Virus record (IMG/VR): IMGVR_UViG_3300033388_003924
Span: 1 to 33,843 of that record
Direction: 5' to 3' (one strand)
DNA from: a virus
DNA: 33,843 nt
Numbering within the stretch: position 1 is the first letter of the stretch; each line of letters begins with the position of its first letter. The translations under genes and the position numbers were made by a program. Positions 6,375 to 27,551 of the stretch are shown here, piece after piece. A model generated the notes under the pieces. The model was not told where the DNA came from and ran no database searches. It was given only the letters and a program-made list of their open reading frames with translations.

Positions 6375-8039
6375 ATGAGTAATAGAATTAAAGACTTAAA
6401 TAATAGTATAACCTTTGAATTAACTGATGTACTTGGACTTGATAGAGTTTCACCAGATGAAACTTTTAAAGTTACCGGGCAGGTATTTGCTGATAGAATT
6501 GGTGAGGCTTTTCTTACTTCAGATAAAATGAAACAAATGAATAGGAATATGGCTCAACTAATTGCCGTGGCAGATATTGACGATAATGCACCAGAAAATT
6601 CTGGTAAGTTTTATGATTTATTCCAAGGTGAGAATGAATTTTCACAAGGTATAATAGATGAAGCTTCAACAACTTCTGATGCAGATGTAAGTGCAACTGA
6701 TACTGAAATTGATGTTGTTGATGCTTCAGATTTTGCAATTGGTGAAGAGGTAACAATCCAAGGTGATTATAATGTTCCAGTATATTATGATATTGATAGT
6801 GCATCTTATGATTCTAAATCTTTTGTGACAACTACTCAAGAAGGAAATCCAAGGGGTGTTTCTTTTTCTAGTGATGGTTCAAAAATGTATGTTGTTGGAT
6901 TAGTAGGAGATTCAATATTTCAATATACTTTATTAACTCCTTGGGATGTTAGTACAGCAGAATACGCTGAAAAATTATATGACCCAACAACTCAAACTAC
7001 TGCACCTTTTGGGGCAAAGTTTAATGGTGATGGTACATCTATGTTTATAAATGATTTTTCATCTAGGATTATATATCAATATACTTTATCAACTGCATGG
7101 GATGTTAGCTCGGCAAGCTATGCAACAAAATCATTAAATACATCATCACAAATAACAGAACTTGTAGGATTTTGTTTTAATAGTGATGGTTCAAAAATAT
7201 ATGCTGTTGATGATGCTACAAATGAAATTATTTATCAATATAATTTAAGTACTGAATATGATTTAAGTACTGGAAGTTATGCATCTAAATTTTTTGATAT
7301 AACTTCACAAGAATCTTCACCTCAAGGTATTGCTATGAATGCTGATGGTTCAAAAGTATTTATAATAGGTACAACTGCTAAAACTGTATTTGAATATGAT
7401 TTAAGTACTCCTGATGATATAAGTTCAGCAAGTTATAATAGTATAAGTTATTTAACTACTGGAGAAACTACAAATCCTCAAGATATATTTTTCTCTACAA
7501 TTGGAGATAAATTTTATATTATAGATAGTACACCAGATGAAGTTTTTCAATATTCATCTTTAGGTGGAACACCTTCTGGAACAATTAGAATTGAAAGAAA
7601 AGTTATAAGTAATATTGTAAGTAATACTTTAACAATTCCAGCACTAACAAATAATTATGCAAGTGGTGCTGAAGTTTATAGGAGTTTATATACAATAACA
7701 GCAGAAGAATTATTATTTCCCGGCTCAACACTTACTGAAGTTGACATAAGATATAATATAATCCCTGTATCAGAAGCAAGACAAGTTTTAGCATGGGTTC
7801 AAAAGAATATTATTTCCGGGTATTCAATCACTGGATATATTTCAATCGTAGATACATCCGACCCTGAATCTTATGTTGTAATGACAAAAAGTACAATAGC
7901 TTTAACAGTAGGTGAAGAAGATGAATTTGAATATTTTGGAACAACAGCAGAAGAAAAAATTACCTTAAAATTAAAACTAATTAGGAATTCAACTTCAGAT
8001 GTAATAAAAATTACTAAAATTCTAGGAGCAATAGACTAA
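6375..8039 (+). CDS. Tail fibre protein with five-blade beta-propeller
   Basis: 554 residues. Residues 1-95 are a fibre-like N-terminus. Residues 138-397 hold five repeats of about 52 residues, each with a blade pattern 'SPQGI.F..DGSKMYV......IFQYTLST.WDVSTASY'; the DGSK-type turn recurs near 167, 219, 271, 324 and 376. The propeller lies between two halves of another module: AIGEEVTIQGDYN (121-133) before and RKVISNIVSNTLTIPALTNN, ASGAEVYRS after (408-437). The C-terminal 100 residues are beta-rich. Propellers of this type occur in tail proteins of environmental phages; receptor binding is the likely role. Confidence 0.7.
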   Translation: MSNRIKDLNNSITFELTDVLGLDRVSPDETFKVTGQVFADRIGEAFLTSDKMKQMNRNMAQLIAVADIDDNAPENSGKFYDLFQGENEFSQGIIDEASTTSDADVSATDTEIDVVDASDFAIGEEVTIQGDYNVPVYYDIDSASYDSKSFVTTTQEGNPRGVSFSSDGSKMYVVGLVGDSIFQYTLLTPWDVSTAEYAEKLYDPTTQTTAPFGAKFNGDGTSMFINDFSSRIIYQYTLSTAWDVSSASYATKSLNTSSQITELVGFCFNSDGSKIYAVDDATNEIIYQYNLSTEYDLSTGSYASKFFDITSQESSPQGIAMNADGSKVFIIGTTAKTVFEYDLSTPDDISSASYNSISYLTTGETTNPQDIFFSTIGDKFYIIDSTPDEVFQYSSLGGTPSGTIRIERKVISNIVSNTLTIPALTNNYASGAEVYRSLYTITAEELLFPGSTLTEVDIRYNIIPVSEARQVLAWVQKNIISGYSITGYISIVDTSDPESYVVMTKSTIALTVGEEDEFEYFGTTAEEKITLKLKLIRNSTSDVIKITKILGAID

Positions 8040-8218
8040 TGAAAAAAAGAAATAGAAGAACAGGTGTACTAATAAACTTAAGTTCAGTTGATAATTGGAA
8101 AGAAAAATTCATAAAAGATAACGGTTCAATAGAAGATCAATTTATTGAACAAGCAGAAACACCTATTGTTTATAAAAATAAAATAAAAGATTGGATAAAA
8201 GATAATCCAAAACCTTAA
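8039..8218 (+). CDS. Small basic protein of unknown function (59 aa)
   Basis: The ATG overlaps the stop codon of the fibre gene (TAATG), and AGGAG lies 10 bases upstream, so translation is probably coupled. The product starts MKKRNRRTGVLINLSSVDNW and ends IKDWIKDNPKP; it is basic at the N-terminus and amphipathic afterwards. It fills the gap between the fibre gene and the secreted protein gene. The close packing and ribosome binding site make it credible. No family is recognised; a fibre-assembly accessory role is only a guess. Confidence 0.6.
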   Translation: MKKRNRRTGVLINLSSVDNWKEKFIKDNGSIEDQFIEQAETPIVYKNKIKDWIKDNPKP

Positions 8219-10440: not shown

Positions 10441-10448
10441 AAAGAGCT

Positions 10449-10552
10449 TAGACTTTTTGCACTTTTTTATACCCTATTTATTACTACTTCTCATATATAT
10501 ATATTTACTTTTCTATAATCAGTAATATATAGGGGGTAAAAAAGTCTAAAAT
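10449..10552 (+). repeat. 100-bp dyad repeat, copy A (inverted relative to copy B at 27449-27551)
   Basis: The left arm (TAGACTTTTT at 10449, then GCAC, then TTTTTTATACCC) is answered by the right arm (GGGGGTAAAAAAGTCTA at 10532-10548) around an AT-rich centre of about 60 bases. The reverse complement of 27449-27551 aligns across the full length at roughly three quarters to four fifths identity by hand. Shared blocks include AGACTTTTTGCAC, TTTTTATACCC, TTACTAC, TCATAT, CAGTAA and TATAGGGGG. Runs of five G or C occur only in these two elements. Confidence 0.8.
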
Positions 10553-10633
10553 TTTTTTACTTATTCAGTTACTTATTTGATATGTTTTTTATAAATTGCA
10601 AGTCAAGATTTTAAAATAATTTATAAAGGACAT

Positions 10634-10712
10634 TTTGACAGATGAACTTAAAGCACTTAAAAAATTTAAATATGATTTGTCTTACTTCCCTATAGTAAGA
10701 ACATCTGTCAAA
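10634..10712 (+). promoter_or_regulatory. Structured RNA leader: start-codon-sequestering stem
   Basis: TTTGACAGATG (10634-10644) is perfectly complementary to CATCTGTCAAA (10702-10712), an 11-bp stem. Inside it, TCTTAC (10680-10685) pairs with GTAAGA (10695-10700). The outer stem buries the ATG of a small ORF (10642-10695) that fills the loop. CTTAC/GTAAG segments also occur in the following terminator hairpin, so alternative pairings are possible. The layout is like an attenuator: leader ORF, competing hairpins, terminator, then the regulated gene. The function is inferred. Confidence 0.5.
10642..10695 (+). CDS. Candidate 17-residue leader peptide
   Basis: ATG at 10642 to TAG at 10693-10695 encodes MNLKHLKNLNMICLTSL, with five leucines in 17 residues. 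AAAGGA lies upstream at 10625-10630, at a rather long spacing. The bases around the start, GACAGATG, are the same as at the starts at 13020 and 18238, which also open new gene groups. The ORF spans the inner hairpin of the leader structure, so ribosome passage would disturb it. A short ORF can arise by chance, so confidence is limited. Confidence 0.35.
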   Translation: MNLKHLKNLNMICLTSL

Positions 10713-10755
10713 GCTGGTAAGGTTTTCTCTCCTGATTATCCTTACCAGCATTTTT
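10713..10755 (+). terminator. Intrinsic terminator or attenuator hairpin before the helicase gene
   Basis: GCTGGTAAGG (10713-10722) pairs perfectly with CCTTACCAGC (10740-10749) around a 17-base loop, followed by ATTTTT. It ends 3 bases before the helicase ATG, which has no Shine-Dalgarno sequence. It could end late transcription, or act conditionally on the replication operon together with the leader ORF. Confidence 0.65.
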
Positions 10756-10758
10756 ATT

Positions 10759-12330
10759 ATGACAACATACACTTTAACTGATTACCAAAAAGAATTGTCA
10801 AGTAAACATATTGATACTCTTCATAAGCATAAGATTCTTTACTATGTTATGGAGCAAAGAACCTATAAAACTATTACTGCACTTCTTACAATTCAAAAGT
10901 ATTATAACAAGTATAAACCAAGAGACGGTAAAAATCATAATAAAGTTTTATTTGTTACAGGTAAAAAAATTATTAAAGATATTGAACTTGATATAAGTAT
11001 GTTGAAAAAAATACTTAAAGATAAGTATACACTTCAGATTGATGTAATAAATTATGAAATGCTGCACAAAATAAATAAAGATAATGATTATACTTTTATA
11101 GTTGTTGATGAACCTCAAACCCTTGGAGCTTTCCCAAAACCAAATTTAAGAACCAGATTATTAAAAGATATAGTTCAGTATAAACTTTTGATATTATTAT
11201 CAGGTACACCAACACCTGAAGGATTTTCTCAAATCTATCATCAACTTTATATTTCAATGAATACACCTTTCAAACAATGGGGTAATTTTTATAATTGGGT
11301 TAGTGCTGGATTTGTTGAACCTACTGAATTAAGAATTACTGGAAGAACAATAAAAATTTATAAGAATGCAAGAGAAGACAAAATTTTACCTTATGTAAAA
11401 CCTTTTATGATTACTTTTACACAAAAGCAAGCAGGGTTTAAACAAAAAGCTCCAATGGATATTATTAGACTTGTGCCCGGTAAACCTTCAATACAAAACT
11501 TGATTAAGATATTACTTAAAGATAGATATTATAAATGTAGAAAATTTGAAGGTGAGATAATTGCTGATACTGCTGTTGCCTTACAACAGAAAATACATCA
11601 ATTATCTTCAGGTACAATTATTTGTACACATCCAACAGAAACAGTAACAGTAAAGAAAAAAATAATTGACCCTGAACTAAGAAAAAAAGTAGAAGTTGAA
11701 ATTGAAGAACCAAAAAAGATTTATAAAATTCTGGATGAATCAAAAGCTGATTTTATTGAAGAAGAGTACAAGGATAAAAAGATTGCAATTTTTTATAAGT
11801 ATATATCAGAAGGAACTGTTTTAAGGAAAAGATTTAATACAACTGAGGACAACCACGAATTTAATGCTTCAGAAGATTTGGTTTTTATATCTCAATTTAG
11901 AAGTGGTTCAAGAGGTATAAACTTAAGTACAGCTGATTTAATAATTGCATACAATATTGATTTCAGTTATGAGATTTATTCTCAATTCAGACAAAGGTTA
12001 AGCTCCAAGGATAGAAAAGAACAACCTATAATACATTGGTTGTTTACAGCTTATGGTATGGAAGATAGGATATACTTAAAAGTAATAGAAAAAGAATCAT
12101 ATACATTAACATATTTTAAGGAAGATTATATGAGTACAAAAATAACACAATCAGTATTAAGGGAAGCATTAAGTATTAAGAATGCTATTTATAAACTTAC
12201 TGTTGAAATTCAGAATATGAATGCAGCAACAGACCTTGAAACACTTAAGTATTGTAAGGAGCAATTTATAAAGACCGGGTTAATTGAAGAAAAAGATTTT
12301 GATTCACCTTATGGTAAAGAAAAGAAATGA
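10759..12330 (+). CDS. SF2/SNF2-type DEAD-like helicase with degenerate P-loop
   Basis: 523 residues. Motifs in order: a Walker A-like MEQRTYKT (31-38), VVDEPQ (Walker B, D117-E118), LSGTPTP (148-153), and a C-terminal helicase domain with FISQFRSGSRGINLSTADLI and YSQFRQRLSS (motifs V and VI). Phage relatives usually read RTGKT at the P-loop; here the glycine before lysine is a tyrosine. The start has no Shine-Dalgarno sequence, lies immediately after a terminator-like hairpin, and is kept because the conserved N-terminal region begins soon after it. It opens the DNA metabolism operon; a role in replication, recombination or transcription remodelling is expected. Confidence 0.8.
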   Translation: MTTYTLTDYQKELSSKHIDTLHKHKILYYVMEQRTYKTITALLTIQKYYNKYKPRDGKNHNKVLFVTGKKIIKDIELDISMLKKILKDKYTLQIDVINYEMLHKINKDNDYTFIVVDEPQTLGAFPKPNLRTRLLKDIVQYKLLILLSGTPTPEGFSQIYHQLYISMNTPFKQWGNFYNWVSAGFVEPTELRITGRTIKIYKNAREDKILPYVKPFMITFTQKQAGFKQKAPMDIIRLVPGKPSIQNLIKILLKDRYYKCRKFEGEIIADTAVALQQKIHQLSSGTIICTHPTETVTVKKKIIDPELRKKVEVEIEEPKKIYKILDESKADFIEEEYKDKKIAIFYKYISEGTVLRKRFNTTEDNHEFNASEDLVFISQFRSGSRGINLSTADLIIAYNIDFSYEIYSQFRQRLSSKDRKEQPIIHWLFTAYGMEDRIYLKVIEKESYTLTYFKEDYMSTKITQSVLREALSIKNAIYKLTVEIQNMNAATDLETLKYCKEQFIKTGLIEEKDFDSPYGKEKK

Positions 12331-12485
12331 AAAAGAAATTAAAAATATTAGCTAATGAACATTGGAATTATATAGAAAAATTATTAAAAGCACATAATGA
12401 AAATGAGGTTATACTTAAAAAAATTGAGTTTCATTATAAAACTGCTTTTATTCATGGGTGGAAACATTGTAAGGAGAAAAAATAA
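12327..12485 (+). CDS. Small lysine-rich phage protein (52 aa)
   Basis: The ATG overlaps the helicase stop codon (ATGA), so translation is probably coupled. The product begins MKKKLKILANEHWNYIEKLL and ends KTAFIHGWKHCKEKK. The 'Y..AFIHG.KH' ending is common in tiny proteins next to phage nuclease and replication genes. It has no transmembrane segment. Function is unknown. Confidence 0.6.
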   Translation: MKKKLKILANEHWNYIEKLLKAHNENEVILKKIEFHYKTAFIHGWKHCKEKK

Positions 12486-14036: not shown

Positions 14037-14077
14037 GAAACAGGTTATTATACTTTTTTATTATAATAACCTGTTTC
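14037..14077 (+). terminator. Strong intrinsic terminator
   Basis: GAAACAGGTTATTATA (14037-14052) is perfectly complementary to TATAATAACCTGTTTC (14062-14077), a 16-bp stem with a 9-base T-rich loop. AT-rich sequence with T-runs follows. It lies 15 bases after the histone-like gene and could work in both directions. Confidence 0.85.
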
Positions 14078-27416: not shown

Positions 27417-27448
27417 TTATCAAAAAGTGTATAGTAAATAGTACAAAC

Positions 27449-27551
27449 TTTTTAGCCTATTTTACCCCCCTATAGTTACTGGTTATGGAATTGTATATAT
27501 ATAATATGACAGGTAGTAAGATAAGGGGGTATAAAAAGTGCAAAAAGTCTG
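27449..27551 (-). repeat. 100-bp dyad repeat, copy B (inverted relative to copy A at 10449-10552)
   Basis: On the + strand the left arm is TTTTTAGCCTATTTTACCCC followed by CCTA, and the right arm is TAAGGGGGTATAAAAAGTGC followed by AAAAAGTCTG. Read on the - strand it aligns with copy A over its whole length, including the GCAC asymmetry in one arm. The arm with AGACTTTTTGCAC faces away from the replication/early module in both copies. It ends about 80 bases before the small terminase gene. Confidence 0.8.

Follow-up and report, generated by a model that had tools for sequence, protein, structure and literature searches.

Two abutting hairpins and a short open frame before a phage helicase gene: a possible translation-gated terminator

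Results

A structured gap precedes a helicase gene that lacks a ribosome binding site

The IMG/VR record IMGVR_UViG_3300033388_003924 is an AT-rich sequence of 33,843 bases whose plus strand carries the main genes; this whole stretch was analysed and is called the window below. A gap at 10441-10758 separates a DUF5675 gene, which lies beside the holin gene, from a gene for a SNF2/DEAD-type helicase. The following features were located in and after this gap:

10625-10630, plus strand: AAAGGA, possible Shine-Dalgarno sequence of the leader frame or frames
10634-10712, plus strand: hairpin 1, perfect 11-bp stem with both candidate start codons inside (fold and repeat search)
10635-10781, plus strand: open frame of 48 codons if it starts at TTG; its last 23 nt overlap the helicase gene
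10642-10695, plus strand: 17-codon ORF, ATG to TAG (stop at 10693-10695), product MNLKHLKNLNMICLTSL
10680-10700, plus strand: 7-bp inner hairpin that spans the stop codon of the 17-codon ORF (fold; 10680-10686 with 10694-10700)
10713-10758, plus strand: hairpin 2, terminator-like, 10-bp stem, 17-nt loop, T-rich tail
10759-12330, plus strand: SNF2/DEAD-type helicase gene, ATG at 10759, lacking a ribosome binding site

Most genes of the window genome have Shine-Dalgarno sites. Calculation of the ribosome-site duplex energy gave +1.2 kcal/mol for the helicase start against a median of -6.5 kcal/mol, the worst value of all 46 starts, so an earlier note on this DNA was right that the helicase ATG has no ribosome binding site. 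Neighbouring genes overlap in 11 of 44 pairs, by 1-17 nt. Under the explanation that is tentatively favoured below, the segment forms the 5' leader of an early, helicase-first operon. Promoter-like sites near the leader were not more frequent than expected by chance in a motif scan, which counts against this explanation.

Several other structures were seen in the window. A large imperfect palindrome occurs twice, at 10446-10558 and 27440-27550, and the two copies are 82% alike, stand in opposite orientation and lie at either end of the early gene block, separated by about half a genome; they may serve as bidirectional terminators or in replication. MW202828 carries a similar palindrome (L004, near 2788), found with a search pattern that was composed after viewing the sequences. 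An AT-rich stem of about 17 bp at 10582-10633 ends where stem 1 starts and overlaps the possible promoter region. Between two early genes, a perfect 16-bp stem with a 9-nt loop (14037-14077) is followed by AT-rich DNA and is terminator-like.

The two hairpins abut and exceed chance expectation

Stem 1 is formed by TTTGACAGATG (10634-10644) and CATCTGTCAAA (10702-10712), with 11 bp and a loop of 57 nt, and the ATG at 10642-10644 makes up the last three bases of the 5' arm, as expected from the earlier description of a perfect stem that buries the start of the 17-codon ORF. The inner hairpin that had been described as 6 bp lying within that ORF is present, but it has 7 bp in the fold and straddles the ORF stop. 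Stem 2 is formed by GCTGGTAAGG (10713-10722) and CCTTACCAGC (10740-10749), with 10 bp (6 of them G/C) and an energy of -17.6 kcal/mol (-16.6 kcal/mol in the comparison of pairings below). It ends 9 nt 5' of the helicase ATG, and its tail ATTTTTATT reaches as far as that ATG, so sequence and fold both reproduced the perfect 10-bp hairpin with T-run noticed before. Stems 1 and 2 meet at 10712/10713 with zero bases between them.

The 141-nt fold had an energy of -38.3 kcal/mol (z -5.2), and none of 200 shuffles was as low. Among 1,125 segments of 120 nt covering the whole genome, the best one at the leader ranked 6th in z and 17th in energy. The window contains three perfect stems (at least 10 bp, at least 4 G/C, loop of at most 60 nt) against a mean of 0.58 expected from 100 simulated genomes, and two such stems within 5 nt of each other were found in none of the 100. 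This analysis confirmed that both hairpins are real, unusual and beyond chance.

Stem 2 is stable, contains G+C pairs and has a T-run behind it; it thus has the sequence features of an intrinsic terminator and may release transcripts. The terminator scan, which permits loops of 3-8 nt, did not report it, its loop being 17 nt; such a loop is large for an intrinsic terminator, which counts against the best explanation.

The inverted repeat might instead work at the DNA level, the 11-bp arms serving as paired operators or belonging to a promoter or an origin of replication, and we regard this as unlikely. Each arm of stem 1 carries TTGACA (10635-10640 on the plus strand, 10706-10711 on the other strand), a -35 consensus, and the gap is AT-rich with many inverted repeats. 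However, no TTGACA in the whole window is followed by a TANNNT box 16-18 nt downstream, extra copies of the 11-mer are not found above chance, and the abutting second stem would be left unexplained. Side-by-side stem-loops ahead of an early operon also recall put of phage HK022, in which two adjacent stem-loops serve early phage genes (PMC9378689). By this analogy the leader RNA would sit by an early promoter and modify RNA polymerase, which appears extremely unlikely: the window element has about 116 nt against about 70 nt for put RNAs (PMC9378689), its first stem encloses a loop of 57 nt, its second has a T-rich tail, and an Rfam scan gave zero matches at the leader up to E 5.

The 17-codon ORF is unlikely to form a trp-style attenuator

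The segment had been described in the earlier note as an attenuator before the helicase operon, in which a ribosome on the 17-codon ORF would select between exclusive terminator and antiterminator pairings. Three observations agree with this: AAAGGA has good spacing to the ATG, the start is buried in stem 1, and the stop lies 17 nt 5' of stem 2. AAAGGA (-5.3 kcal/mol) stands at an aligned spacing of 8 from the ATG at 10642 and 1 from the TTG at 10635, where other genes have a median of 6 (10th-90th percentile 3-7), and random places reach so low an energy in slightly more than 10% of cases. The codon score of the ORF was -8.5 bits; such poor codon usage says little about a leader peptide.

The pairing logic, however, was not supported. 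The CTTAC/GTAAG repeats on which it was based are present, but the best upstream pairings of the stem 2 arms reached only -6.4 and -4.9 kcal/mol against -16.6 kcal/mol for stem 2 itself, so that they do not provide a working antiterminator. The predicted probability of stem 2 was 0.997 in the free RNA and 0.998 with a ribosome at either the leader stop or the leader start. Stems 1 and 2 are adjacent without overlap, no strong mutually exclusive terminator and antiterminator of trp type were seen, and MNLKHLKNLNMICLTSL has no run of a single residue that could serve as regulatory codons. Thus the terminator-like hairpin and the ORF start inside a stem stand, whereas trp-like logic is not supported by the modelled pairing, and the attenuator as first proposed is very unlikely. 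What remains is a simpler idea: with the stop of the 17-codon ORF only 17 nt away, stem 2 could be kept open by a ribosome close to it.

A slippery-looking A AAA AAT was seen at 10659-10665 in the 17-codon frame, where ribosomes could slip into the 48-codon frame; it is separated from the inner hairpin by a spacer of 14 nt, which is long for frameshifting.

A second frame runs through both hairpins

A second frame, overlooked before, is open from 10620 to the TGA at 10779-10781. From the TTG at 10635 it covers 147 bp and traverses both hairpins and the T-run. Its codon score was +13.4 bits against out-of-frame DNA, where the 99th percentile is 5.1, and real gene stretches of 48 codons had a median of 26 and a 5th percentile of 6.2; against an intergenic background, which was a small set, the score was -0.7. 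An ORF that long with that score arose in 0.18% of 20,000 intergenic-like sequences and in 9 of 50,000 dinucleotide shuffles of the region. The 5' arm of stem 2 reads Ala-Gly-Lys in this frame, and two near-copies of the arm elsewhere in the window stand in the same phase within real genes, which counts in favour of the best explanation.

Four observations count against coding. Database searches found no homologues of the product, the third codon position is C in 19% of codons against 5% in genes, Phe or Tyr make up 11 of the 48 residues, and the TTG has a spacing of 1. A Stenotrophomonas match (E 1) lay inside a larger gene and was taken as chance. In the searches for homologues and relatives, pattern P0001 gave 158 matches in genome_contigs, of which 0 were confirmed. 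A single-sequence structure model of the product was poor (pLDDT 58.6). Weighing these features of codon usage and composition, we consider it somewhat more probable that the 48-codon frame is translated, by whatever start, than that it is not, and of the two leader frames it is the likelier one to be read by ribosomes.

Further short frames were seen in other gaps, at 8039-8218 (59 codons) and 12327-12485 (52 codons), and are possibly unlisted genes; the 59-codon frame has gene-like codon usage.

Some relatives carry a pseudoknot-terminator leader before the helicase

Scans with the helicase and the polymerase found no close relatives in viral_contigs, and searches with two protein motifs and with DNA patterns for the palindrome and both stems returned only unrelated loci or nothing. 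Terminase relatives in genome_contigs amounted to 73 loci; the 25 of these that were listed in detail share mainly structural genes, with weak likeness in helicase, primase or tape-measure. Helicase relatives amounted to at least 80 loci with 36-41% identity to the window helicase, of which 80 were kept for comparison, and a fold z value was given for 67 of these 80 listed loci. The helicase usually comes right behind another gene: of the 67 listed loci with an identified upstream ORF, 57 have a gap of at most 30 nt.

A conserved element of about 110 nt stands before the helicase in 14 of the 80 listed relatives: an H-type pseudoknot and, directly after it, a GC-rich terminator stem that has a T-run. 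This element was described by covariance model R1:

L031-L034, L036, L039-L041, L044-L046, L048, L050 and L052 (for example L041:941-1051): pseudoknot-terminator leader, model R1

The 14 loci represent 10 distinct sequences. Both partners had changed in 3 of 21 pairs, 98.6% of cells were able to pair, and 0 of 500 shuffles reached the observed value on any of five measures, the structure having been drawn on the same sequences that were used for this covariation test. R1 was present in 6 of 30 records searched whole, once in each; the regular expression for the element was composed after viewing the sequences. Comparison of 7 whole element loci with Rfam gave no match up to E 1. The distance to the helicase ATG, measured from 8 nt past the conserved arm, ranged from 8 to 225 nt. 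Locus L035 (3887-3995; 24.5 bits) retains the 3' terminator arm and the TAGTAATT motif without the 5' arm, which is a misfit with a conserved terminator in the relatives. The helicases of the 10 element-bearing loci also lack ribosome sites, which is ordinary there because most other long genes in 8 of these loci lack them too (median -0.4 kcal/mol).

An ORF in the R1 leader is not conserved, ranging from 10 to 48 codons across the 10 distinct sequences, and this counts against the best explanation. The earlier note had proposed comparing the fate of hairpins and ORF in relatives; R1 bears on this by analogy only, a different leader being kept and the ORF not kept (14 of the 80 listed relatives).

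Homology between the window leader and R1 was considered and is unproven. The window scored 10.3 bits with the R1 model (E 0.68 in 4 kb) while an unrelated place scored 13.7 bits, and the window did not appear among the R1 matches in the 80 listed loci. A 14-nt core match with L034 was reached by 5 of 1,000 shuffles, and its score of 28 compares with 34 and 31 elsewhere in the window. The likeness consists of the layout and a 14-nt core of doubtful weight. In both cases a structured element is directly succeeded by a terminator-like stem, and a helicase of one and the same family comes next, but the window fails the covariance model, has a nested stem rather than a pseudoknot, and has another terminator sequence.

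These relatives bring forward another reading, a structured RNA leader in which no ORF plays a role. In that case hairpin 2 would terminate partially or under the control of a factor, or would act as a stability element, while hairpin 1 would bind protein or RNA. The strong structure (fold z, genome rank, stem statistics) and the covarying pseudoknot and terminator without a conserved ORF in 14 of the 80 listed relatives speak for it. On the other side, the relatives' leaders are without demonstrated homology to the window leader, the score of the 48-codon frame is rare by chance (9 of 50,000 shuffles), and the missing helicase ribosome site is left without explanation. We regard this reading as doubtful, yet given the relatives as nearly as likely as a translation-gated terminator.

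Discussion

As the best single account we tentatively favour a terminator that is gated by translation in the manner of pyrBI, coupling being the way in which the helicase is translated. The two hairpins, their direct contact, the lack of a helicase ribosome site and the open frame with its codon score are observed; transcription, termination, choice of frame and gating are inferred. Because hairpin 2 ends 9 nt before the helicase ATG, no promoter fits after it, and transcripts that reach the helicase would have to cross it. A ribosome following close behind RNA polymerase in the short frame would hold hairpin 2 open, and transcription would continue into the helicase gene. If the leader were poorly translated, as may be expected with both candidate starts buried in hairpin 1, transcription would stop at about 10755. 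The end of the 48-codon frame lies about 20 nt into the helicase gene, which could couple its translation to that of the helicase; such coupling would account for the absence of a ribosome site, and it fits a genome in which gene overlaps are common (11 of 44).

The pyrBI terminator of Escherichia coli sits within a 135-bp leader gene (PMC4824070), and the window frame is similar in that its 147 bp (10635-10781) span stem 2 (10713-10749) just before the gene that would be regulated. PMC4824070 and PMC5021804 state that ribosomes near a terminator repress termination, and the former adds that terminators are repressed near stop codons and free past about 27 nt. Unlike pyrBI, the window has a phage helicase in place of pyrimidine genes, its frame overlaps the gene, its start codons are buried in a second stem, and its translation and termination are predicted. 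Attenuators of the trp/his type likewise have a short ORF, hairpins and a terminator-like stem 5' of the gene, but the window is without strong mutually exclusive pairing and without a regulatory codon run. HK022 putRNA shares the paired adjacent stem-loops before early phage genes, whereas the window element is longer, differs in shape and has a terminator-like tail, sequence likeness having been judged by the Rfam scan alone. According to PMC2965389, 1,004 of 15,930 predicted attenuators overlap annotated short ORFs. An attenuator of a phage replication operon in this form did not stand out among the literature records listed.

At the level of the family, it may be, although we consider this rather doubtful, that this helicase is repeatedly placed behind structured, terminator-bearing leaders of differing make (a nested double hairpin with an overlapping 48-codon frame in the window, a pseudoknot with a terminator in relatives), and that phages ration the helicase by transcription attenuation, with the sensing parts turning over while the terminator logic stays. 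The pseudoknot-terminator of the relatives, which is supported by covariation and matched no Rfam family in those loci that were searched, is a concrete and testable RNA element before a phage helicase. If the translation-gated terminator is true, a replication gene expressed early by the phage would be turned on or off according to whether ribosomes keep pace with RNA polymerase, and the phage would thereby read out host translation directly as infection begins.
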